Origin: Xylona heveae TC161
Lineage: Eukaryota > Ascomycota > Xylonomycetes > Xylonales > Xylonaceae
Assembly (NCBI RefSeq): GCF_001619985.1
Contig: NW_017264202.1
Location: forward strand, 434,001-498,000
Reading direction: 5' to 3'
Length of the DNA stretch: 64,000 bases
A model generated the notes under the pieces. It did no database searches. It saw nothing but the letters and a program-made list of their open reading frames with translations, and was not told the DNA's origin. Numbering within the stretch: position 1 is the first letter of the stretch; every line of letters begins with the position of its first letter. Positions 1 through 17,960 of this stretch are shown piece after piece. Both the position numbers and the translations under genes were made by a program.

Positions 1-916
1 CGCCTACGGGGTACATGGTCAAGGTATTTTTTTTTTCTTCTAAAAAAGGGTACCTAGATACAAGCGCGTTGTTCTGTGCTTCTAATTTCATGCGTGTCAT
101 TATTTTGTTGTTATTGTTTGGCGTGCTAGCTTTGTTCGCGACGTATTGTTATGGTGTTGATAATTTTTAGTTATAGAAGGAACGATTTAGGCTACGTCAA
201 AGCGGCATTGGCGGGACGAACAGGCGGGGACGGAGGGGTGCCGACGCCACAAGCGACGCCTTGGCCGTCTTTTGCCCCGAGCCCTGTCAACTGTCAACTG
301 TCAAGTGTCTTGCAGCCACCAATGCAAGCCTCAAACTGTAATTGTCAGAACTCGGTATTCCAGTCGACGGTAACGTTTACAATCAATTCCCAGGAAGGAG
401 TCATCACAGCTGGCTCAGTCATCAATATCCTAATTACCACGTCCGTCTTGCATCATTCTCGGCAGCATGCTTCACGTACTACGGTACGTTGCTTCATTCA
501 GATGCTCCAGCGCTTGTTAAATACCAATGGCCCACTTTGTTCTTGGTAATTATATAGTCGACAACGGGGATTTTATTTTAAGCAGATATCGAGATACGTA
601 ATGTGACAAAAATTTGTCAGATATCACGATAGTATTTTGACACTTATTTTACTTTTATTTTTATTTTCAAAAATTTTTGGATAATTTTATTACCCAAGCA
701 AGATTCTTTTGAATTGAAGTAATATATATCTATTTTGGTTTTCGCACCCCCCCTTTCTGCCTCCTTCCCTCCGGCATACTTTCTTTATTTTACTAACATT
801 TATCTTGTCATTCTCTAGCGGAGGGGAAATTGGGACGGCGACCAGGCAGGGCACGAGCAAAGCGAAAAGCGAAGTCAATGGCGGCTGATGCCCGGGGAGA
901 AAGCAAGTATCGCATC
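1..916. other. Left flank of the transposon, no gene recognised
   Basis: The stretch has normal CpG content, unlike the element that follows. Open frames here are short and overlap without any recognisable protein. A small tandem repeat (three copies of a GTCAACT-like unit) lies near 283-303, and an AT-rich stretch covers about 560-740. I see no RNA gene. The last 8 bases (909-916) are the left target-site copy of the hAT element. Confidence 0.5.
909..916. repeat. Left 8-bp target-site duplication of the hAT element
   Basis: ATCGCATC directly precedes the left TIR. The right copy is ATCACATC; the single difference is a CpG to CpA transition. Confidence 0.85.
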
Positions 917-931
917 TAGGGTGTCCGTTGG
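917..931 (+). repeat. Left TIR of the hAT element
   Basis: TAGGGTGTCCGTTGG is the inverted partner of 17938-17952. Inside it, to about 1040, lie several GGTCT/AGACC motifs in both orientations, the usual form of subterminal transposase-binding repeats. Confidence 0.85.
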
Positions 932-1283
932 GGGCGGTGGCAACCGGTGGTCTTTGGTCTTTCTCATAAAAAGACCAGACCAACAGTGGAATTTTGCATC
1001 TGGGACCAGACCAACTTGGGTCGGTCTTTTTCGTGGTCCACTGCTGGTCCTCCATCCTTGATTTGTTTCTATATTTAGGCCATTTTGTTTCTTTTTATAA
1101 TGGTAACTACAGTGGTAACTACAGTTTGTACATGGTGACACCTAGATTTCAAACTTTATACTATAGGTGATACTAATGCTTTATTGTAACTTTTTTACAT
1201 TTAATGAACTATATATAGAACTATCTATTCTTCATTCACTGCTTTTGAGAATTTTGATGCTGAGATACTTGAGGTTAAGCTTG

Positions 1284-4230
1284 CTACTTCTTATTTGGTG
1301 GTAGAATTGTAATGTTTTCCAGAGCTGGTAAGCTGGATTCAGGTAGATCTCTACTAACAACAATTTTATCAAGCTCTTTGCTAGTTCTAGCATTAGAATT
1401 GCTTGAAATTAATTGAGGTTTAGAGACACTACTTAAATTATCTAAATCTACAATTTTATTACCTGATGTCAAATCACTACCATGAACTTCACCATTACTT
1501 TCACCATTAACATCATATAAGTCCTCCTCTGTATCACTTATAATGGCATTCTCAGTCTGTTTTCCAAGAACTTCATCATCATGAAGGGCAAATAAGGTGG
1601 TTTCATCATCCCAGTCCTCCTCTACTAAATGCTTGGCAAGAAGGTACTTGTGATCATAATGTTAGACCATTATAGTTAAGTAGATGGTTTCAGCACTCAG
1701 CTGATTTTGCTCAAATGATATTAGCTGCCTTGTAGTACTAAAGCATTGCTTACTACCAACCCCCAAGATTGGAATGGCAAGAAAGTCTTTTGCCATCTAC
1801 TTCAAGCCTGTGTACTGGTTATGTAGCATATTTTTCCATACCTAAATAATTAGCAGGCTGTTCTGGAATAGCATGGTAGTTACCAATGTAGTTACCATAC
1901 TTACCCTTAATACATCCTGTGATTCAATACAAGGTTTATTAAGATATTAATTTGCACTGTCCATATTAGTTGTTTTTTACTTTTGCTAAGCAGCATATTA
2001 GGCCATTGCATTCATATCCTGGACTATCATTTCTTCATCATCCAATGGCTGGATATTGACATCAAGATGGCTATAATGTTGTTGATAGTAGTTTAGAAAC
2101 TGCCTCTGGTATTTGTTGACATGCTCCTTTGACTACTCTAATGCCTGACTTGTATGAGAAAATTAATTATGTAAAAATAAAAAGGATCTTCACTTGATAG
2201 AGCTCAAGCTTGGTTAATAGATCAAGAATATAACTCAGGTTGTAGACTCTGTCCTCCTGGTCCTTAGTCAAGGTATAATAATGATGAAGTTTAGTCCAAG
2301 TAGTTTCTAACACATGAAGAATTTCCCTTTTCTACTATGTCTTCTTTGGCTTCAATTTTCTAACATGCTCCTCAATGTACTTAAAAAGATCATTATATAC
2401 AACCCAAGCCTTGTAGATGGTAGGCCTAGTTGTTTTTGAAAGTATAACTGTCTAGTCTTTGAATGGTTGTAGTATTGCAATAAGATATTGAACTTGTTGC
2501 TACTCCTCCTTCTTGACTCAAAGGCAGAAGAACTTATATCCCTCCTGTATTACAAAGTTGTTGATTTTGTGCTATAAACTGAAAGCATGTGCCAGCATAT
2601 TAAATGTAAAGTTCTAACAAGTCTTGATGTCTTGGATAAGGTTTAAAGGTTTTCTGAGCCATAGTTTCAGGAAGTACTTTCTTTGTTATGGTAATTCATT
2701 TACATATATGACAATAATGCAAACCTAGTAATGAACATAGTTATCAAAATAGTTAGCAATGTACCCTTATGGAATACAAGTCTTTGAAACACATTCTAAA
2801 GCTTGGTAGTTACTATAAGTGTTACCATGTGTATAACATACCTTGCAAAGTGTATTGCTAAATGAAATGCTACTGCTTATAATCTCCAAAGTAGACTTGT
2901 TCTATCAGGTGGTTCTAAGCAGGCTGTTGTTATTAGTAGTAATACTTAATGCCTTTAAAAAGGCTGTAACAGCAAGCTGGATGACATGTGCCAAGCAAGG
3001 TACCATGGCTAGCTTACTATCCTACTGTATATCTAACATTGCAAGCATTTTTCCAACATGGACATACATGGTTGAGTTGTTCCTTGCATTGTTAGTTGTA
3101 GTAGCAAGTAGCCAGCCCTGATTCAAAGTTAGCATTCTAAAATGACAAGAAGCCCTAACTAACCTTTATATCAAACCATTCTAAAACATTTATCAAAATC
3201 TCAGTCATGTGTTTACCTGAATGGACACTAGAGAGTGACTCAAATCCTAATAAACATTCTTAATAATTCCAGTCCTCATCAATAAAGTAGCTCAATATGG
3301 CCAGAAATGGTAATCTATTTGGGCTTGTCCATGCATTTAGAGAGATTGATATTCTTATTGCTAGTCTTAGCTTACTCAAGATCTTTGGCTGAATAGTCAA
3401 TACTTGATTACACAACCTTTTATCAAACTACTGTCATTTTAGTATGTTTACATTACAAAGCATGTATATCAGGGTTTAAAATTGAGGATTCTTGATGGTT
3501 TAGAATGACTAGTTGCAAGCAAGAGCAGCTTACATTAGTTGCTCCAGCCAGGAATTACAGGTATATACTAGTATATTTGACTTAGTTAAAGCCTTGCTCT
3601 AGGATTGAGTTAGCAAGCTGTAATAGTTATTAATGTAGTTACCTTACCATTTTTGATGAACTTCTCCAAAGTAAGTCCAAAGTAAGATGTTTGCTTAAGG
3701 ACAGGTACTTGCTACATTAAGTAGAACAGTAGTGATCTTATAAATTGCTTGTGCCTGTATTGCTATTCTTGCTCCATGTTGGATGCTGCATAGCCTTTCC
3801 ATACCTCAAGCATAGGATGAATGGCATACCATCTCAAACAGCAGCAGCCTGATCAAATTCATTCCAATATTTACTTGATTGACCTCTCTCCTCCTAGTTA
3901 AGATATATCTAGGTACTCATTCTACATAGGGTTTGCTCCTACTACTTGAGAAATAAACCATGATTTTCTTTTTCCTATACAACATACTTACCTTTTAACA
4001 TAGTCTTCAAATCTATAGGGACTAGATTTTCATTGTTAACAATAGATATATCTTCTGATGGTAAATCTATACCAAAGGCTAATGAGGAAGACAGAGGGCT
4101 ACTTGGAAATGGTCTATAAATATTGGATGAAGGAACTAGAGACATGAGTATTGAGTATAATTGATCATAAAGAACATTGACACAAACTAGCAGGTACAAA
4201 AGCTATTCATTCTTCTATTTCCAATATTGC
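1284..4230 (-). pseudogene. hAT transposase, decayed, multi-exon
   Basis: The best preserved part is the C-terminal hAT dimerisation domain (about 1662-1850 on the minus strand). It reads DFLAIPILGVG, then CFSTTRQLIS, then QLSAETI, which matches the family pattern of LAIP.SGVG, FSTAR and LSPETI. An acidic tail runs on to a stop at 1284. A convincing intron interrupts it at 1904-1842: GTAAGT donor, TGCTAAT branch, TTTAG acceptor. A second probable intron lies near 3650-3600. The 5' part starts around 4200, and the reading near 3980-4200 ends in a good donor. A few in-frame stops are seen where TAG or TAA would come from CAG or CAA, as expected of C-to-T decay. The exact start is not resolvable by eye. 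Confidence 0.7.
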
Positions 4231-4432
4231 TACTGTATACAGTAGTATATACAGAGTACAGAATAAGCATTCTGGTATAGTAGGACTCTTGATAGTTAAT
4301 TAACAAAAGGTAACTACCTTGGTAACTACATTTGCAAAAGGGGCTCATTAAGTCAGAAGAGCTATAGCATTACAAAGTAGACATATAGTGTATCTTGGTT
4401 ACATTTTAGTGAAATCAGACAGACTATCATTC

Positions 4433-4945
4433 TGTTATGGTAACACCTATGGATAGGCATCAGGTTGTATCTTTCTAGATAGTTTCCTGTTAGTACATCA
4501 AGGGTTCTTACCTAGTAATATAACATCCTGCAATATTATTTAGTGATAAGAGCAATATAAGATGAAATAACAATTCAGGTTAGGTAGATAAAGTAAACAA
4601 TAAGATATTGTCATTGTACTAGTATCTGAATACTAATAACTAATTACTATAAAGTAGTAATGCTAAAGCAATAATGTCAAGAACTATATAGAACAATTCT
4701 AGCTACATAGGAAAACCATCCTCCTTATATAGACAATCTGTTCTGTGCTAATTATACTTGATCATCTTGATTACCTTGTAATTACTTGTGATCACTGTAA
4801 TTACTATTTCTGCTACTGTTCTCTGCTTTCTTATCTTATCATCATGTAATTCCTTGTCCTATGATATTATATAGTGTACTGTGCCTCTACACTTCATAAG
4901 TAGGCCCTGCACCATCTATTACTGACCCTTGTAATCATTGTTACA
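4433..4945 (-). repeat. LTR, left copy (3' LTR of the minus-strand element)
   Basis: The 513-bp repeat pairs without gaps with 11499-12011. It lies next to the putative polypurine tract, which marks it as the 3' LTR. Confidence 0.9.
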
Positions 4946-7900
4946 TTAGGTCCTCCCTTTCTATCCTTTTAACTTGAAAGGTCAATTCCATGACTACCTG
5001 GTTTTCTCATAAAAGGTAAGGCTTCTCCCTCTTTTTGTTGCTTCTTCATTCTTCTAACCTTTTGTTTCATCATGCTAAAGGTTTCTAGTTCTACTTGTTA
5101 TTATCACCTTGCCAACCATGCTTCTGAACTTTCTTGTAACATACTAACTTCTTGCTCTGCCTGCCATTCTTCTAGTCAGGCTTACAAAGTTTCCCTTGAA
5201 TCTAGTCATTGTGTTAAGTGCATTTCCTGTAGTCAAAAGTGTGATCTAGTAGTATCCAAGGCTGACTAGTAGCATCTTGATTCTAATTGTTGTTACATTA
5301 AGGCTTCCTTAGAGGAAACAAAGTTCAAGTTTTCTTACTTGGTCAAAAAGGCCTTCTAGCTTTCTATCTGTTGTTTATACCTTTACAAACAGCTCCTTCA
5401 AAACTATAATCATGGCAAGGAGATGTTTTAGCAAGAACTTGAATCCATTAAGGAATTAGAGCATCTAGAACAAGAGTCTAAAGTCACTACTTCTACTGTT
5501 TTCTCTCCTTCAATTTCTTTTGATTTTGATTGGTTTGCTTTCTTGAATCCCCTGGATCTTTCCTCTTCCTTTGCCAGTAGAATTTAGCAATCTTCTCAGG
5601 GCAATTTAAATTGGTTCATGGTTCTCATGAATTTGATTCTTCTCTATAGTCAAGCCATTTGACATAGTATTTCTATTGCTAACCTTCTTTCTTTGTGTCT
5701 AGAATTTCTTTAACATTATACTCTTTGTCTTTAGATGAAATGTCTAGTTCCTTTGCAAGTAGTATACTTTCTGGTACTAGTTCCAATAGTGAGACATAGA
5801 ATGTCAGATGTATTCTCATTTCTTTAGGTAGTTATAATCAATATATTACTTCATTGACTTGTTTCTTGATTTTAAAAGGTCCTGCCTTAACATAGTCTAA
5901 CTTCTTGTTTAATCTCTTGGATTTCAAGTTTCTATAGAATAGGTAAACTTTACCCCCCTCCTTAAAGATTGGTCCATTCAATCTTCCTTGATTAGCATAT
6001 TCCTACATTTTCTGGTTTCTGAACTTGATTTCTTGTCATAGTGATTTGTAGAGTTCCTTGATTCCCTGGCTATATTGTAATCCTTGTAGTAATGTACTGT
6101 TACTCTTGATTTCTGCTCTTTGAACCACTAGATTGTATCTATAATTTGCCTGAAATGGTAACATTCTGATAGTATCCTGTTTTGTGCTATTATATGTGTA
6201 CTAAGCTACTAGTAATAGTGGTATTTAATTGTCTTACTGGTAGCTAATATAATGTTGTAGATACTGTTCAACAATCTAATTAATTTGTTTGGTCTGTCCA
6301 TCTGTTTGTGAGTGAGCTATAGTTGACATCTTGTGTTCTACTCCCAAGCTTGTTATCATCATTCTCTAGAATCTTAATGTAAATAACTTATCTCTGTTAG
6401 TAATGAATTCCTTTAGTAACTAATGATTTACTATTACTGTTTGTAGTACTAGGTATGTCATTTGTTCTGCTATAGCCTCCTTTATCATTGGGATGAAATA
6501 CATGTATTTTGTAAGTTGTTCTACAATTACAAGTAATGTATTGTACTTTTGTCCTATAACTAGGTCTGTTGATTTTAGTAAATCTGTAATAAAGTCCATC
6601 ATGACCAAGTCCTATAGCCAATGTAGTACTTCTAGATTCTTTAAATTCCTGTATAGCTTATGTCTGTTTTTCTTGTCCTGATTGCAAACATGGCATCCTC
6701 TGACTATTTCTTTAACTAACTTCTATATATCTAGTATATAGTAGTTTGCTATAACTTGTGTAACTGTTTTTGTAATTCCTAGATGTCCATTCATTGGTTC
6801 TTTGTGTATTTCTTTAACTAATTCTTTTTATAGCTTCTGTAGTATATAGATTTGTCCTTCATGATATAAGAGTTCATCCTTAAGTAGTTTTCTTACTTCA
6901 TGGTTCATAGTCTTGTCATCTTGGGTTGCTTCTTATATCTACTGTTCTCAAGTATCATGACTTTTGATCTGTAATGTTACAATCATCTTTGCTCTATACA
7001 CTAGGGTTCTATTGCTGTTGAGTTTGAGTATTGTATCTTGTACTAGCTTTATACCTTTCTTGTACCTTTCCTGTTGACTAAGTGTATTTGTAACTTCATT
7101 TTCTTTCTCCTTTTTGTAGTGTATTTGGAAGTCATACTGAGCTAATGTTTCTGCCCATTGTACTTGTTGTCTATTTAGCTTCTTTGTTGTTGTAAACATC
7201 ATAAGATTCTTATGATCTAAGTATATTGTAGTTGTGTCCTTTGCTCTAAGCAAGTAGACTCTCTAATACTCCATTGCTAATACTACCCTAAGTAGTTCCT
7301 TGTTATAGATATTATAATTTAATTCTGGTACCAATAGTTTTCATGAGTAGAAGGCTACTGGGTGTCTCTTGTCATTCTCTCCTATCTATGTCATTTGTAC
7401 TCCAATGGTAAAGTTTGATAAGTCCATCTTAACTTTAACTTCTTTTCCTGGTTTGTACATCTTTAGTACTGGTTCTTTTAAGAATTTCCTCTTTAATTCT
7501 TCAAATGATTTTTAAGCCTCTTTAGTCTAACTGAAGGGTATACTGTCTTTTGTCAATTCTATGAGTAGTGTTGTGATTTCAGAATATCTTTGTATAAACT
7601 TTTAGTAGAAATTAGTAAAGCCTAGGAATTCCTTGATCTCCTTTTTGCTTTTTAGTACTTCTTAATTCTGTATATCTTGGACTTTTTTTAAGTCTATTCT
7701 GATTCCTTTGCTAGATATAATGAATCCCAAGAATTCTACTTTTTCTTAATAAAACTTGCATTTTTTGGGCTGAATATAGAGATTGTACTCCCTGAGTTTA
7801 GTTAAGACCTTCTTAACTTGCTCTCTATGTTCTTCTAACATTCCATCTATGTAGACTATAATATTGTCTAAGTATGCTGTGACAAAAATGTCCAGGTACT

Positions 7901-10900
7901 AGTGAAGTGCATTGTTAATCATGCTTTGGAATGTAGCTAGTACATTTGTAAGTCTGAATGGCATTACTAGGTACTTATACAGGCTATAACAAGTCCTAAA
8001 AGCTATTTTCCATTCTTCTCCTTCTTTTATATAGATTTAGTAATATCCCTCTTGGATATCAAATGTTGTCATCCACTTGGCTCCTGACAACTGGTCCTAG
8101 AGTTCTTGAATAAGTGGTAACAGGTATGCATTCTTAACTATTTTGTTGTTTAGCTGTTAATAATCTACACATAGTTATAGTTTGCTGTTTTTCTTTGGTA
8201 CCTACAGTATTAGAGATCCCATTGGACTCTTACTAGGTCTAATGTATCCTTTCTCAATATTCTTTGTAAGATATTCCTTTAACACTTTAGCTTGTTGTTG
8301 TGTTTTGAGATATATTAGTCCTGGTTTCAATGTTGCCCCTTCCTTAAGAGGTATTTCATGATCCTATGGCTTGTGTCTTAATAATACTGTTTCCTTTGGA
8401 TCTTTGAAAAGTTCCCTAAACTCTTTATATTCTGGTAGTATCTCAGTTATTAGCATCCCTTTAACCTTATAGATCTACATTACATAAGCCCTATGCTTAG
8501 TGTCTAATATTTCTTTCTATATGTGTCTAAGACTTATTACCTTGATATTTAAGTCTCTCATTAATTTCTTATAATTGATCTTCATTTGTTGCTTATTCTG
8601 TCAAAGTCTTTAGCATCCTGCCTTTCTAAGCAACTTAGGATTTTCTAATCTAGGCCTTCTAGTTTGTTAACTTCCTGCAACCTTTGTAGTAGGAAAGTGA
8701 ATGGTCTATCAACACTAGTCAATTTGTAGGTTGGTTGCCTGCAACTAGTCCATTCCTAAAATGAGGTCTAACCTCATCTCCATATTGATAATGTTAATAG
8801 AGCTATGCCAAGACATTCTGTCTAATTGCATGTCAAGCTCTTCTGTATGCATCATGATGAATCTCTTACTATATACTGGTAAACTTCTGTCTACCATTCT
8901 TACTTAAATTAGATCTTTCTTGAGTTTCCATGACAGATTTAGCCATTCCACCACCCTGGGTAATATAACACTTTCTGTAGCTCCACTGTCTACTAGTGTA
9001 CTGACATGTTTTCTTTAGATCTAAACCTGTACATATACTACATTCTCTGGGTTTATGTTTACAAAGCATATAGTCATGTCATCCTGTTACTCTAGATTTA
9101 GGTAGCCTCCTAGTTTTTTGACTAAGATTTCCCTTTGGAACTTATATCAATGCTATGTACTAAGCAACCATTTACTATGTAGTCTTGCTTTAGTATCTAG
9201 TAATGTCCTAGATACCTTAGATCCTTCTTTGCTACTTGTTATTCTAGGGTATGTGAATAGCATCTATCTTTTAGGCAATCATACCATTTTGTTTGATGTA
9301 GGTGTTCATCTTGTCATTGAATCCAATTTAGGCATCTAATTTTCTAATATTCATACCATGGATGGTACTACTCTATTGTTTCTACCTTGAGTACTTAGTC
9401 TCTCCATTGGTTACATTTCTTTTAAGCTTCTTAGAGTTTGCAAAATAAATACTCTTCATAATGAGCCTTAGCATTGGTGACTTTGGTTTCTGAGTCATTA
9501 GACTCCTCATTCCCTAAAATGAATGTTTCTCTTGTTTCTAGTTTATGCTATTGTTGCTCCTCTTGTTACCTCCTTAGCTACTGTTCTAGGTCTTGGTGTT
9601 ATTATTGGTGCTCTAGGGTCCATTCCTTAATAGCATTCTTCTAGATGTTCTGTTTTATGACCTTTTCTTCTTCCATCTCTTGATGGAAGTTATGTCACCC
9701 TACTGTTTGTCTTTGGACTCTCCTGATGTATTTAATTGCTACAAATTGTCAATCTATGTCTGTAAGCTAATCTTCATTGTTAATCCTCAGATCATCTAGC
9801 CAATATCATTTACTCTGCTCTTGGAGGTCCTCCCTTAGCTTCATGAGTATAGCTTCTTCTAATATTATGCCTGTGATATTCTAGTATTCCTTAGTCTGCT
9901 TAACTTCTTTGGCAATTAGGTCTACATATTCTGTCATTTACCTGTATCAGGCTAGGAACTTGTCTTTTTGTCTCTCTTCTAGCTAGTCTAGTTCCTGGGT
10001 CTACTTTTGTAATACCTTGATTCATTTTGTAGTTTCTCCTTGGGTTATTCTGGTTTGCTTGTCAACTTCCTTCTTAAGCCATTTGACATAGTTCTAGTGT
10101 CACTCCATGACTACTTCTTGCAAGTATAGGTATTGTTGTGCCAGGTTCTTATAGATCACTTATCAAATCTTGCTTTCTTGTTTTAATCTACTAGATGTTC
10201 CTAGGTAATGTATATTTATTTTTCTAAACATATACTATACATTGACTTTGTGCTTTCACCTGTTCTGGTCCCATTAGTATTAGTCAAGTAGTTTGTTTGG
10301 TTATTCATGTACTTTAATAATTAATATTGTTACTACTTTAGCTTCTTCTTTCATTTTGTTAATAATTGGTTCTTCTATAAATTCCACAGTTGTCCCTATG
10401 ACTACCTTCAAGTATTGGGTCTGTTCTTGAGCTTTCTATACCCATTTGAGGTCTAGATCTAGTTGGTTTTATTCACTTTCCTTCTATCCTTGAGGTTCAA
10501 TAGGTTCCAAGAATCTAATCCTAAGAGTCTATATGTCTTTGGATTTCCCATGGTTCTTTTGTTTAGTTTTGTAATCCTTTCTCCAGTGTCTAGTTTTTCT
10601 GCATCTAAGACAAGCTTTTTCATCAAAGTATTATTGTCTTTCTTCTTTGCTAATGGAGTTTCTGTACTTTTGTTTTTGTATAGCATCAAGGTCCATTAGG
10701 TTACCTCTGTCTGGTATTTTGTTTTAATACTTCTTTATATTTGCTCTGTAGCTAGTCTTGTATCCTGAATGTTAACACTTCTTTTCTTGCTCTTGTTTAT
10801 ATTAGTGGTTGTTAATTTTTATAGCTAGTTCTGCCATTCTATGCATGGTTTCTAGCCTGTCTCCTCTGGCTATTTCATCCTTGACTTACTCCTTAAGTCT

Positions 10901-11498
10901 ATTATAGAAGATTGTACTTAATAGTACTTGTCCTTATGGTATGACTAATGCTACTCATGTAAACTCTGCCATGTATAAGGCTGCTAATCCCTTCTGCTAC
11001 ATTGTCTAAAGCTTTTATTCTACTACTTATACTTTATTAATCTTGCCATAGACTTCCTTAATGTATTGTTTAAATTTGTCATAGTGGCTAAAGATGAGTG
11101 TAGTCTTTGCTTCCATTTGATCATTTGGTCCATTCCTCATGTAGTCATCCATGTATAGTTAGAACCACTCTAGGGCTTCTTCCTTTATGTACATTCCTAC
11201 TACTAAGATTTTGTTTAATTTGCCTAGAAAGGTTGTTATATTGAACCCTAGGTATAGCTTCATAGTAATAAGTCATGCTTTAAGCATCCCTCTCTTTCCA
11301 TCAAATTTGTCTAGTATTACTACTTTGATGTTGGCCTGTCAATGCTATGTTGTCAATTGAGCTTAAAGTCCTATGATCTACTCCCTAAGTGTTGTAACTA
11401 CTACTGTGGTTGTCCTGGTAGTAGTTGTTCTTGAATTACTAGACATAGTGAAATGCCTTTACTTGTATTACCTTCATCCTAACATTGAGTAGTTCTTT

Positions 11499-12011
11499 TG
11501 TTATAGTGACACCTATGGATAGGCATCAGGTTGTATCTTTCTAGATAGTTTCCTGTTAGTACATTAAGGGTTCTTACCTAGTAATATAGTGTCCTACAAT
11601 ATTATTTAGTAATAGGAGCAATATAAGATGAAATAATAATTTAGGTTAGGTAGATAAAGTAAACAATAAGATATTGTTGTTATACTAGTATCTAAATACT
11701 AATAACTAATTACTATAAAGTAGTAATGCTAAAGTAATAACATCAAGAACTACACAGAATAATTCTAGCTACATAAGAAAATCATCCTCCTTATATAGAC
11801 AATCTGTTCTGTACTAATTACACCTGATCACCCTGATTACCTTGTAATTACTTGTAATTACTGTAATTACTATTTCTACTACTGTTCTCTACTTTCTTAT
11901 CTTATCATCATGTAACTCCTTGTCCTATAATATCATATAGTGTACTGTACCTCTGTACTTCATAAGTAGGCCCTGTGCCATCCATTACTAACCCTTGTAA
12001 CCATTGTTATA
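11499..12011 (-). repeat. LTR, right copy (5' LTR of the minus-strand element)
   Basis: The 513-bp repeat has the same length as the left LTR. I count about 44 differences, all transitions and no gaps. I found no clear tRNA-type primer-binding site beside it. Confidence 0.9.
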
Positions 12012-12016
12012 CATCC

Positions 12017-14160
12017 TCACTACATATTTAGTATGCTATAGTTACCTTTGTAGTTACCATCATGTCTTGCCTAGGTTACAAATGTGTCCCAGTATTAGTT
12101 AAGAAAGTATAGAGGTATGTTTAGTGGCTTGCATAACCATTAGCTTTACTACAATAAGTAAATGTAGCTAGGCAAGCTATGTAGTTCTACTAAAATAGGC
12201 CTTACTAAATTAGGAAATGAATCAATACCTAGTAATGGATTTAGTGTTTTATTAAAACACTACAATTCTTTTCTACTACAAAGTATACATTCTATTACAA
12301 ATTTAAATTAATTACACAGGTTAGTCTTTCTTAGCATCATGTCTACAATGGTAACAAGTATAGTAACTAACACTTAATTAATAGATCTACAAAAATGACT
12401 CATGAAAAGAGAACTTCAAGACACTTACTACCTATGAAGTCTTAGGGTCAAAGGGCCAAACTATAATTCTTTTAGAATCACAGACACTAGGTCTGGTTCA
12501 GGGATGCAGCTGCCCAAGATAGGTGGCCTTTCAATGTCCTTGAGCTAGTGAAAGAGTCAATGAGTCAGGGAAAAACCAATGGTAAGTCTTACAAGGTAAC
12601 TACAATGGTAACTAAGACTAACTTGACTAAATGTAAAACAGTAGAAGCATTGTAGAAGATCTAGTTCTATCAAGAGAGTATCAGGCTCATTCTCCCCTGT
12701 ATAGCTTTTTCCTGTATAGTTCAAGAAATTACAATGAGCTACAATACAGAGCTGTGTTTTTAAAGGGTTGTAATGCTTGCATTGCAGAAGGTAACAAAGG
12801 CATATCTTGTAGCATTTTTTGATAGTTTGTACAATTTAAGCATACTTATTAAACATTTGACTAATGCATTTATCAGATGTAACTCTGCTTACAATCCATG
12901 CCAAGTAAGTTACATTGTAATTGAAGGATGTACAGTTCTTAAAGCAGCTTATGAAGAATCTTGAAGTAAAAGCAATTGGTATTTAAGGTAGACAAGTTAA
13001 AAAAATAACATTTGATATTACATCTCCATTGGGTCTTTCTTTGATCCTGTTAGTAAATGTAATGAAATGCTCTTATCATCTTCTTCATTCCAAAAGACAT
13101 TATTGAATTCATCAACAAGAAAATTAGCAAATTCATCATTATCATCATTATCATCCTCTTCATTGCTATCAACTTCCTTAGCTTTTAACTAATCATCTAT
13201 GTCTAATGCATTTTAATTTACTAGTAGATTATCCAACTAGTTTTAGTTAGCAGACTAAGAAATGTAACATGAAGTTACCATTATAGTTACCTTTAGATCC
13301 ATGTAGGTCTGATTTACAATACTACCATTAAAGATGCTCATTTCATGCTTAGCATTAATAGAGCCAGCCTGTGCTAGGAAGGCACTCCTTGCATATTTGC
13401 CAAGCCACTCTTGTCTTTTAATCACTGGGTCAAGATGTTTTCACAATACTGCTTTTAAATCTTACTGTTGCTGGCTGTCAAGTCTGATTGTCTAGTAAAG
13501 GTACATGCATTAGTTGAAGTAACTAAACAAAATCATTAGCTTCTCAATCAACTTACAGTTTCACTTCAAAGCTTCATTACTTCTGCCTCTAGATCCATGG
13601 CTGCTAGCTTCTCTTCAAGCTCTTTTGACTCCTTCATCTTTCTTGCTACCATTTGGGTGTCTTTAATAAAGTTACCTTTGAAATAAATTAGAATACCTTT
13701 AATCTATAATAGTAGTTACTATAGTAGTTACTAAAAGAACCTTTATTGTATTTGTCCTTCATTAGCTTAGCTATGGCTGCCTCAATGTATACCTCCTGAG
13801 TTTCTTCATCATTGAGTGTAGTATATTCAAGATCTCTTATAACAATCTTCTTTCTAAGCTTTGAGGTAGCAATACAATTAGCAGTCTATGCCCTGGACAG
13901 CTCTAGCTCATTACTACTTAGTGTGTTGACCTGCTCTCTAGCTTGTTGTACATTTATATTCTGTACATAGCTCCCCTTACTTTTCTTTAGTTTAATGGGC
14001 TGCTTGTCCTTGTGGCCATGCTTTCTTTTTGGTAGTACAGACATGGTAACTATTTGGTAACTATTAATAAGGAAATTAGATCTAGCAAATATTCTGGTTT
14101 TGAACTTACATTTTAATAGATATAACAATAGATATACTATTTTGCTAGAATGTAACAATT
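12017..14160 (-). pseudogene. Accessory multi-exon gene carried by the hAT element, function unknown
   Basis: A minus-strand ATG at 14044 opens a lysine-rich N-terminus (MSVLPKRKHGHKDKQ, then KLKKSKGS) that reads to about 13742 with one TAG. It is followed by exon-like segments near 13670-13560 (charged, EL/EK-rich, coiled-coil-like) and near 13190-13020 (acidic, Asp/Glu-rich). A convincing intron lies around 13291-13235: GTAACT donor, TGCTAAC branch, CTAG acceptor. The protein family is not recognised. It could be a DNA-binding partner of the transposase or a captured host gene. The upstream limit and exon joins are uncertain. Confidence 0.35.
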
Positions 14161-17100
14161 AACTTTCTTTATTTACAAGTTTGTCAAGGTTCTTTGTATA
14201 GTGTTTGACACTAAGCAACAGTGGCTGTATTAGTGTGTTTTCTAGTTTAATTTTTGAACAAGACAGAAAAGGTTAGTGAATGATAATCTACAGACTAAAG
14301 ATCTCTTTGTTAATTAATTATTATAAGAGAAGCAGGATGCAAATATTATGATTGCAATTGAGTTCTTACTTCTACTATAAGGTAACTAGTAAGGTAACTA
14401 GCAAGGAGCTTACAGAATAGTACAGGAGAAGTAACTTGTCTAACAAGTACCTCTTTTTCAAAATCAGCTATAGATAGCTAGGGAGTGATTTCAACAGGTA
14501 TATATAAGATAGCAAAATTGATGCCATGCTACTCAGACTCAAAATCAAACCTTTACTAAGCTACCTCCAAGGCAAGAAGACTATTAGTTTAGAACCAAAC
14601 TATCTATTAGTAGTATGACAATACCATTCCCTATTAGTAACTACAAGGGTAACTACATACTAATGCTTAGCTTTTATAGAGAATGCTTTACATGAGATCT
14701 ACTACTACTAAAAGTCTATTAGTCTCCTTATACCTTAACTCAGCTTCTAGTATCTTACCCATGAGATAGCTTTAGATGCTACTTAAGTAGGAGTAACACT
14801 ATGTTTCTAGAGAGCTGCCTTACTGGCTGTCCAAGAAGTAGCAGAAGCATTCCTGGTTTTATATTTTGAGAGTATGCTATATGCTTTCAAGTTTCTATAT
14901 ATGTGTTCTGTTTACTAATTACATGAACAGATGTACAGCTACTTACCTTTTATACAAAAAGGATTACTTTATAGATAAAAGACCTGGTTTTGTTGAGAAA
15001 TTTCATGAAGAATTTAGATATATAGATTAAATAGATTAAGGGCCTCTAGTAATTGAGATTTACAGTTCATTTAAATACTAGTATTTTTTTGGGGTAGGTT
15101 TTTGTAATTTTTATCTCTTATTTAATTATCAAGTATTTTATTTATCTTTATTTAATAGAAATAAAATATGGAACTAACATACCTTATATTCAGCTACAAT
15201 ACAAGTTATATCTATAATTAAATATCTTTCTACTTAAATACTATTTAAATAAACAGAATAATTTACTCTACTGTTATAACAAGCACTATAAGTTCAAAAT
15301 ATTACATGACTTTTCATTTTGGAGAAATATAAATATAGAACATGTAACTTTTAAAAAACATAGGGTTATCAAGATGGTAACTATACTGGTAACTACTCAG
15401 AGTTGGAGGAGTTATAGCTCAACCCTGAATCCAGGATAGGTTCAGGACTAGTACTACCATGAACACCTCTTCTAATATCTACATCTGAGCTGCCAGGACT
15501 GTTAGTATCAATCCATTGCATGTCAATTGAGGGTTTTAACATAGAGGACTCAGTCAAGTAAATAATCTCTATATTATCCATGACTATCTAATGTCCTTCT
15601 ATTTCTAGCAGCCACTTTGAGAAAGTTGCTAATGGTTTAGCAAGCTAAATGTACTCCTTTATTTGCTTACAAATGTACCTTTAGCAGTCATGTTTAATTG
15701 CTTCCAAGAAATTAGCTATTTTAGTCTAAGTATAGCAGGATTTTTAGCAAGACCATTCTTTCTAACACAGTATAGTTACCAGGATAGTTACTATAACTAG
15801 CTTGCTCCATCTAGGTTAGATTTGCTTTACTATATTTCCTTTACTTTTGATAGATCCTTATACTCTCTTGTTAGTGTAGCTCTAGTTTATGATAGAAAAT
15901 ACAAATGGTAGCTCCTTACAAGCAAGTAATTTTTTAGATTTTTTCCACTACTATCATTTTGCTCAGAATTACTTTCATTGAACCTGGTATACTACTACTC
16001 TTTCTAAATCTTGTATACAGACAGATTTTGCCTTTAATCTTGCCTTGATGATTGCATTCAGTCATCTGTATTTGACTACTTTCATTAGTCATTTTCTTAG
16101 ACAGGCTTTTTGTCTTTTCTTACCTTCTTTAGTACTCTCTTGTTACTTGTTATTGCTTTCATCATTTTCTGGCTTGTTTTCTGCCACTCTAGTATGCTAC
16201 AATGCTTTCTTTGTTACTTTAACTTTTCCTACATTGTATAAGCTTTATATCTAATAATAAAGTTACCATTATAGTTACTAATCTTCTGACCTGTTTTTTA
16301 CTTTGAAGTCCTTAACTTTCCTCCCTATCTACTTTATCTTGTAATGCTTTGCTTTCCTAAGCAATGTAAGTAACTCTCTCTAAATACATTAGAACTTTGA
16401 AAAGCTTACTTGTGTATTTAGGAGCCATGATGGGCTGACTATTTCATATATATTGTTTGCTAATGATAATAATACCTTTGCATAAGCTACAGCTGAGCCT
16501 GTAGATACCTAAGTCATCATTGCTATAATAACAAAGAGTAGTAGTAAATGTAGAAAGCAGAGATTACTACTCAACCTAACAACAAAAGCAACAAACAAAG
16601 CATTATCACTACCATTACCAAGAATCCAAGATACAAATAGCCTGCCTTTGAACAATTACAATTTGTAGCAATATGCCTAGAAAGCATGGTCATCCTGAAA
16701 GCAAGTTTTGTTCTATATCTAACATTGCTTGCATCTAACATCATTCTAGTTATAACTCATGAAGGTCTAAAGGCTAGCACTCCTACATTCTATATGTATC
16801 TGCATATCTAATTCTCTATTACATGTTTTACTAACTATCTTGGTAACTATCTACAGAGTTAGACAATCTCAAACAGTTACAAATTATCAAAAGTTAAATC
16901 AATACTTTGAAAGGCTTAAAGGGCAGCAATCCTACATCCTATATGTATCTATATGTCTTATACTTTGTTATGTGTTATCACTTAGTAACTGTCTTAGTAA
17001 CTATAGAAGCAGACAATTTAGAAAGTATGCAAGTTTTGCTACATACTCTAGAAGATACAAGAATGTCTACCCTACAGGGTAAGTCAAAGAATGCAATACT

Positions 17101-17937
17101 CCTTGTTTATGTATATACTAACTAATCTATAGTAAAGACATTAGCTGGTCTTGGTCTATCATGGACTGACTTGGAGATCTATCAAATGGATTTTCTTCTA
17201 CTTGTAGAGGAGTACTTGTCACTGGCTGGCCTGGAATACAAGCTTTTAGCAAAGAGTACAATCATCTTGCAAGCCACCTGTAAACAATTTCTAATTGCTT
17301 TTTTTCAAAGTATGTAATATGATCTTTATGTATTTAGCAATAATCTAACATTAGTAGATTGTAACAAGTATATTGTCAGCTATAATAGATATTGTGTCCT
17401 TTGACAAAAAAACTTTAACAATATGAGAACCTTGTCTTTCAAGAAAGACAATTAGATAGATATCATAATTCTAGATTACCATTTACCATTGGTCCATTAT
17501 AGTTACCATTATAGTTACCTGTTGCTTCAAGAGTATTGATTGATAAATGCATCCTAAAAATGGTAACTAACATGGTAACTATGACCATCTTTTGTAGTTA
17601 CTTTTTTCTAATACAAAAACTTCATAATTTCTTGCTATAACCTTCTTCTATATATTGTTTTGTACTTTTAATCTCATGATAAAAAGCTAAAATCAAAACT
17701 TAAAGCTTCTTGAATTTTGATGATGGCATTTCATTCCTTTCTAAACAAAAGGTTATGGAGTAGTCTAAGTAGACATTTTATGCATGATATACATTTATAT
17801 CAGATTTATGCATAGATGGGTTTAGTCAAAAAAACCACCCATGCCTAGTCTAGAGGTTGGTCTTTACCTCAAAGACCAACCTAGACCAAAGACCAGCTTG
17901 GTATAGAAATTTTGAGCAAAGACTAACCTAGACCAGA
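14161..17937. other. Right third of the hAT element, decayed and mostly unassigned
   Basis: Short minus-strand readings may be relic exons. One begins at an ATG near 16428 (MAPKYTSKLFKVLMY); another runs 15581-15393 and is Ser/Asp-rich. Neither matches a family I know. The stretch holds nine copies of the 12-bp-period GGTAACTA pair and is free of CpG. I see no second set of TIRs or LTRs, so I treat it as part of the hAT element. Confidence 0.4.
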
Positions 17938-17952
17938 CCAATGGACACCCTA
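17938..17952 (-). repeat. Right TIR of the hAT element
   Basis: CCAATGGACACCCTA is the inverted partner of 917-931. The adjacent subterminal zone (about 17850-17940) repeats AGACCA/GGTCT units as on the left, but with all CpG lost. Confidence 0.85.
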
Positions 17953-17960
17953 ATCACATC
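17953..17960. repeat. Right 8-bp target-site duplication of the hAT element
   Basis: ATCACATC directly follows the right TIR and matches the left copy at 7 of 8 bases. Confidence 0.85.

Follow-up and report, generated by a model that had tools for sequence, protein, structure and literature searches.

Transposons of the hAT superfamily that carry a histone H3-like gene (hAT-H3L elements) are known from Pyrenophora tritici-repentis and Pseudocercospora fijiensis (PMC3538342, PMC6710886), and the question of why fungal hAT elements carry such a gene was posed in 2013 (PMC3538342). Fungal DNA transposons, hAT elements included, also encode TET/JBP dioxygenases, which are epigenetic tools carried by transposons (PMC12730594). 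In Arabidopsis, binding of the VANC protein to its motif is accompanied by a local loss of methylation that spreads (PMC5735166, PMC10398659). We describe a hAT-H3L element of Xylona heveae that is filled along its whole length with paired copies of a short motif. At about even confidence, we favour the reading that the pairs are element-wide double-stranded DNA binding sites for a sequence-specific protein encoded by hAT-H3L elements themselves. X. heveae is an endophytic ascomycete; its genome comprises 24.3 Mb in 17 contigs, and the window, that is, the whole stretch of 64,000 bp that was analysed, is C10:434001-498000. Positions without a contig label are those of the window.

The original prediction of about twenty pairs with a rigid 12-bp period on both strands was confirmed. 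Each site has the form GGTAACTA-N4-GGTAACTA; 20 pairs with the 12-bp period (10 per strand) and a single pair at 11 bp, at 14045, make up 21 sites in the hAT sequence (Table 1). A scan of the window with up to 3 mismatches returned 22 matches against 0.42 expected, a number reached in none of 100 shuffles. One of these matches, at 9563 (3 mismatches), sits in the long terminal repeat (LTR) retroelement that is inserted in the hAT element, and another, at 15364, is a second register of the site at 15376. By word statistics, the octamer GGTAACTA occurs 25 times against 0.66 expected. All of these exact copies fall in the 9.5 kb of hAT sequence, with none in the 7.6-kb retroelement, the 46-kb right flank or the 0.9-kb left flank. 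The contrast is weaker at one mismatch, where the two hAT parts hold 12 and 35 octamers, the retroelement 8, the right flank 18 and the 0.9-kb left flank 3. The retroelement had been described as free of pairs, which holds for exact half-sites but not for the match at 9563. Self-similarity was seen at 31 places for distance 12, whereas each of the remaining distances between 8 and 30 gave 3-13. The aligned sites have a consensus of about WTRGTAACTAY-NNT-RGTAACTAY, and outside the core (-2 to +20) the columns hold at most 0.35 bits. There are two units per site, and longer arrays of the unit were not seen.

The array is element-wide rather than terminal, as had been claimed, and its spacing is more even than chance. 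The largest gap between sites is 861 bp (P=0.0025 versus uniform placement; 0.245% of 20,000 random placements), every point of the element lies at most 430 bp from a site, and the evenly filled interior begins 185 bp from the left end and stops 371 bp from the right end. These distances bear on the main rival explanation, in which the pairs are bound by the hAT transposase and have spread inward, serving autoregulation, protection from self-insertion or assembly of the transposition complex. Binding of short repeated motifs by hAT transposases is documented for Herves and, as cited there, for Ac, Tol2 and Tag1 (PMC3143072), and the transposase is common to both hAT families of X. heveae that have such sites (the second is described below). 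The pairs resemble those subterminal repeats as short repeated words bound by an element protein, although binding here is predicted, and the subterminal repeats lie near the ends whereas our sites avoid the ends, do not cluster there and fill the interior. In addition, the element ends share another word, TGGTCTTTGGTCT, that is distinct from the pair motif. The ends of this family (family 1) recur at about 20 places in the genome, with matches that cover end sequence only. At the examined loci, all seven short copies bounded on both sides by terminal inverted repeats lack the half-site, even at one mismatch, and on this ground the movement of short copies does not seem to require the pair in cis. 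We therefore regard transposase binding as an unlikely origin of the array.

The pair is close to private to this family, as the original prediction required. Genome-wide, 9 of the 11 exact pairs are in the window element (reversed control, 0), and the other two are in relic genes on C5 and C9, 363 and 955 bp from family-1 hAT ends. The C9 relic is clearly H3-like. The C5 relic is weakly so: its tail matches the C9 relic over 27 residues (E=4e-4) and its intron is similarly placed by eye, but Pfam gave no histone match, and we keep its label as weak. Pairs of GTAACTA gave a similar picture, with 14 exact cases genome-wide and 12 in the window element; at one mismatch there were 26 versus 33 in the reversed control, a level of noise since it is below the control. 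Like the VANC motifs, the motif is thus family-specific, in this genome, and lies outside recognised exons (seven sites being in a stretch without a recognised gene). The exact pair was also seen in at least 120 stretches of viral contigs, often several per contig on one strand; these are probably coding Gly-Asn-Tyr repeats, unrelated to the hAT array.

A second hAT family in this genome has a motif of its own, likewise in direct pairs with a 12-bp period. A transposase search found distant relatives (24-29% identity) on C11, C5, C6 and C1. Those on C11 and C5 share 89-90% identity across 5.9 kb and have H3-like genes at most 5 kb away. C1, C6 and a place on C3 are presumed members of family 2, from transposase similarity in the case of C1 and C6 and from equal motif spacing; the spacing at the C3 place matches that of family-2 copies (560-562 bp). 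The top enriched 8-mer of the C11 and C5 copies is AATTGTAG, with 11 and 12 copies versus 1.7 and 1.9 expected, which is modest alone. Of the 19 genome-wide matches of the motif AATTGTAGYRATC, 15 belong to the C1, C5, C6 and C11 copies, one is next to the H3-like relic on C9 and 3 are elsewhere (reversed control, 2). When TTGTAGYRAT was sought as a 12-bp repeat, all 10 exact matches were in the C1, C5, C6 and C11 copies, the C3 place or the C9 relic, and allowing up to 2 mismatches raised the number to 27 (reversed control, 5). The opposite strand of the family-2 unit reads GATYRCTACAAW, near the family-1 unit GGTAACTAYAAT. At up to 2 mismatches the family-1 unit occurs 13 and 12 times in the family-2 copies (no simulation was made); the family-2 unit occurs 20 and 30 times there, versus simulated means of 8.3 and 9.5, and 16 times in family 1, versus 7.8. 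Both types of pair occur together in the H3-like relic at C9:672033-672649 (L036 4534-5150), where a family-2-type pair lies 340 bp upstream of the family-1-type pair. A 23-bp tandem array of related units was noted between the family-2 H3-like gene and central open reading frame (ORF), with 3 copies on C11 (L074 5134-5203) and about 9 on C5 (L075 8087-8289).

These searches also bear on the possibility that the pairs are sites for a host transcription or chromatin factor, gathered by the element to drive or insulate its genes. Sites do lie upstream of recognised genes, in both orientations (4309, 12350, 14045 and 14381), but a host factor should have sites elsewhere, and the motif of the second family is different. 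With a joint pattern drawn up from both families' units, all 25 matches at up to 2 mismatches were in the C10 element (4), the C1 (3), C5 (7), C6 (3) and C11 (6) copies and the C9 relic (2), and 31 more appeared at 3 mismatches, 19 in these elements, the C3 place or C5:469-470k and 12 elsewhere; matches in the source elements are expected because the pattern was built from them, and only the lack elsewhere is informative. The 12 outside matches among 56 do not exceed the 16 found in all with the control. A host factor is, in our opinion, distinctly unlikely.

None of the 21 pairs is in a recognised exon of the element; the sites are spread over introns, promoters and spacers instead. Seven are in predicted introns, four in the transposase gene and one each in H3-like gene 1, H3-like gene 2 and the central ORF, and 13713 is a probable eighth. 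They lie near the 5′ splice site, as had been observed earlier for several copies, at no fixed distance from it (about 0-15 bases by eye). The intron models were drawn by eye from frame changes and splice consensus. All four pairs of the transposase gene are wholly within predicted introns, at a P of 1.6e-5 that is optimistic because the pairs were visible when the introns were called. External backing is limited to the intron of H3-like 1, as the public protein from the C9 copy omits the stretch holding the pair. That protein also rules out the pair at 12595 as coding sequence (KVTTMVTT). A mechanical test for a branch point and 3′ splice site backs five of the seven predicted introns and fails for 2738 and 2807.

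On this basis a feature of introns or RNA could be proposed to have spread inside the element, either mobile introner-like introns or a splicing signal (a pseudo-5′ splice site, GGTAAC). The intronic pairs are all in gene sense, and a branch point and 3′ splice site follow the pair in 6 of 21 cases in sense versus 2 of 21 in antisense (random, 11%). However, 14 of the 21 sites are outside the seven predicted introns, on both strands (12 if the probable 13713 and possible 12350 are counted as intronic), two of the six predicted transposase introns have no pair, and the flanks of the pairs share little. Fungal introner-like elements are near-identical whole introns; the array is like them in being repeated intronic sequence, but in our element the recurrence is limited to a core of about 22 bp, and the majority of sites lie away from predicted introns. 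The spreading intron family put forward in the original prediction is therefore unsupported. The motif of family 2 is likewise found in a histone intron near LFE/DTNL, where a protein search finds the flanking exons; inspection by eye adds one intron of the central ORF and one of the transposase. In the register shared with family 1 it opposes the gene in 3 of 3 cases by eye, whereas the family-1 motif follows the gene in 7 of 7. An RNA signal is unlikely provided that this register is correct. Otherwise each family has its own gene-sense intronic motif, and a DNA-level reading must rely on the 12 to 14 sites that are not in predicted introns. On balance, we consider an intron or RNA feature very unlikely.

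The element has decayed, and relative to the C9 copy C-to-T type changes affect 25 of 42 CpG, 23 of 77 CpA and 16 of 113 other C/G sites. Indices of repeat-induced point mutation (RIP) are raised but mixed, with TA/AT at 1.09 and 1.27 in the hAT parts versus 0.67 in the flank and the second index at 1.24 and 1.07 versus 1.32. It had been remarked that the motif survived this decay. This is true, but no selection is required: the motif is without CpG and has CpA/TpG only at one edge, so that its survival is expected and is not evidence of function. Its common variant, in which A replaces the first-base G, is confined to sites preceded by T (11 of 31 versus 0 of 9, P=0.043). These properties would suit an AT-rich, RIP-proof word left behind by mutation, but the LTR element, likewise AT-rich and located there too, is without an exact half-site, and a 12-bp period cannot arise by decay, which explains only the survival of the word. 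A decay artefact is hardly credible as the source of the pairs.

The 8-bp target-site duplication, in which one base differs, and the short inverted ends (Table 1) place the element in the hAT superfamily. Its transposase gene, read through with X at stops, matches the hAT dimerisation domain PF05699 (28.7 bits versus a cut-off of 21.4), and a further transposase search gave a single match, at 22% identity. Besides the transposase, the element holds a central ORF and, judged by protein matches, at least two decayed histone H3-like genes, which the original prediction overlooked. H3-like 1 was recognised through a less decayed, 77% identical segment of 459 bp on C9, whose protein matches PF00125 (5.7e-13) and H3.2 in PDB (6.2e-16) and is 62% identical to the window copy. 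H3-like 2 scores 1.5e-3 in Pfam, under the cut-off, and was recognised through PDB. An H3-like gene thus lies between hAT ends, as in the hAT-H3L elements. A third histone-like ORF, at 17150-17330, looked H3-like by eye and was set aside, having no Pfam match and no PDB match at E up to 5. Two ORF starts, at about 16673-16705 (+; MPRKHGHPESK..) and at 14044-13985 (-; MSVLPKRKHGHKDK..), look like decayed AT-hooks and provide candidates for a DNA-binding protein.

Table 1. Features of the hAT element in the window.
Feature	Position	Strand	Remarks
Left target-site duplication	909..916	.	ATCGCATC
hAT element	917..17952	.	Terminal inverted repeat TAGGGTGTCCRTTGG; 9,457 bp minus inserted LTR element
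Right target-site duplication	17953..17960	.	ATCACATC; 7/8 identical to left
LTR retroelement inside hAT	4433 to about 12011		About 7.6 kb; GC 0.33; LTRs 92% alike over 300 bp
hAT transposase gene, decayed	1287..4144	-	Dimer_Tnp_hAT 1.2e-6; introns by eye 3599-3647, 3118-3163, 2796-2841, 2725-2764, 2145-2193, 1842-1904
Histone H3-like gene 1, decayed	12413..12880	+	Intron 12582-12641 holds pair
Central ORF, function unassigned	13000..14044	-	Predicted intron 13237-13290 holds pair bar first base
Histone H3-like gene 2, decayed	14671..14890	+	Nearest PDB chain H3/CENP-A chimera, 1.6e-8; predicted intron 14637-14670 holds pair bar first base
Pair	1102..1121	+	
Pair	1877..1896	-	Predicted transposase intron
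Pair	2738..2757	-	Predicted transposase intron; not backed by mechanical splice test
Pair	2807..2826	-	Predicted transposase intron; no branch point in mechanical test
Pair	3624..3643	-	Predicted transposase intron
Pair	4309..4328	+	Upstream of transposase
Pair	12039..12058	-	Between transposase and H3-like 1
Pair	12350..12369	+	Upstream of H3-like 1; possible 5′ untranslated region intron
Pair	12595..12614	+	H3-like 1 intron; same place in C9 relic
Pair	13272..13291	-	Predicted central ORF intron
Pair	13713..13732	-	Probable central ORF intron (frame changes across); not backed by mechanical test
Pair, 11 bp	14045..14063	+	Directly upstream of central ORF start codon
Pair	14381..14400	+	
Pair	14636..14655	+	Predicted H3-like 2 intron
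Pair	15376..15395	+	No gene recognised
Pair	15773..15792	-	No gene recognised
Pair	16260..16279	-	No gene recognised
Pair	16830..16849	+	No gene recognised
Pair	16984..17003	+	No gene recognised
Pair	17500..17519	-	
Pair	17562..17581	+	

The element agrees with the hAT-H3L elements of Pyrenophora and Pseudocercospora in its 8-bp duplication and RIP-like decay (PMC3538342, PMC6710886), and the Pseudocercospora elements, of about 9.5 kb, likewise contain one or two H3-like copies each (PMC6710886). In contrast, the Pseudocercospora H3-like copies are intronless (PMC6710886), whereas here an H3-like gene has an intron at or adjoining the place of an intron in the host H3 gene, by eye. Since the host gene seems to have an intron there, the source may have been a genomic H3 copy rather than a transcript. 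The tails of the element's H3-like proteins differ from the host H3 tail by eye. The host CENP-A-like gene (C8:971300-972100, L197) has, by eye, an intron near ..RLVREI, unlike the host H3 intron place. A dispersed motif is described in the consulted text of neither hAT-H3L paper (PMC3538342, PMC6710886), unlike here, and a dispersed paired motif in such elements was not found in the open-licence literature searched. The inserted LTR retroelement is flanked by an apparent 5-bp duplication (CATTC/CATCC), and an LTR sequence related to it (84%) adjoins the C11 hAT element (L074 9341-9900). A 66-bp direct duplication (77%; 16762-16827 and 16911-16976) ends just before the pairs at 16830 and 16984.

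From the array itself, its near-privacy in this genome, its even spread on both strands, its absence from recognised exons, its period and the 12-bp pairs of the second family, we infer that a protein binds the pairs, that the element encodes it and what it might do. Internal binding sites for an element-encoded protein had been one of two explanations offered originally, and the inference favours it. Each site holds a 12-bp unit (about WTRGTAACTAYN) twice in direct orientation, at a distance of roughly one helical turn, which is the spacing expected for two DNA-binding domains docking head to tail. A protein of this kind would enable the element to identify itself over its full length. By analogy with VANC and VANDAL, its purpose would be to keep the element open to transcription, or to load the element's own chromatin, against silencing; anti-silencing or element-specific chromatin is most likely on this analogy. 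The VANDAL21 and VANDAL6 motifs are similarly short, family-private, noncoding and different between related families, but they form tandem arrays whereas ours are isolated pairs of two units. Moreover, for VANC the bound, element-encoded protein and the methylation loss have been demonstrated, while the present system is known from its sites alone, and in a hAT element (PMC5735166, PMC10398659). The H3-like histones make a chromatin role attractive, if circumstantially. A fuller proposal would be a self-recognition chromatin system, in which an element protein on the 12-bp pairs excludes silencing or loads the element's own H3-like histones, with a family-private code that drifts between families; we offer this as a speculation with a small chance of being correct.

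Several points weigh against an element-encoded binding protein, besides the circularity of the joint pattern mentioned above. No candidate binding domain came up: the central ORFs of the two families match neither a Pfam model nor each other, so that their homology was rejected, and that of family 2 has no relative in the protein database. No gene was recognised over the stretch that holds the seven sites from 15376 to 17562, and exons are possible there. The gene sense of the seven intronic pairs is not required of sites that act at the DNA level. A second full copy of family 1 was not found in this assembly, and conservation of the pair in the one homologous copy, that on C9, is weak evidence because identity outside CpA/CpG is 84% in any case. 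The self-similarity peak at 12 bp is absent from family 2, whose pairs were found by motif instead. Finally, the shared register gives the closest likeness between the two units among 24, but the column-permutation P of 0.067 is not significant alone.

In conclusion, the array suggests that chromatin on these elements is organised by the elements themselves, and it provides a DNA bait for the isolation of a binding protein. Element-private codes such as those of VANC may here have a second, independent instance. If the chromatin proposal is true, these elements would possess a fungal counterpart of VANC anti-silencing, independently evolved and using a histone. The paired sites thereby give a concrete handle on why hAT elements carry H3-like genes.

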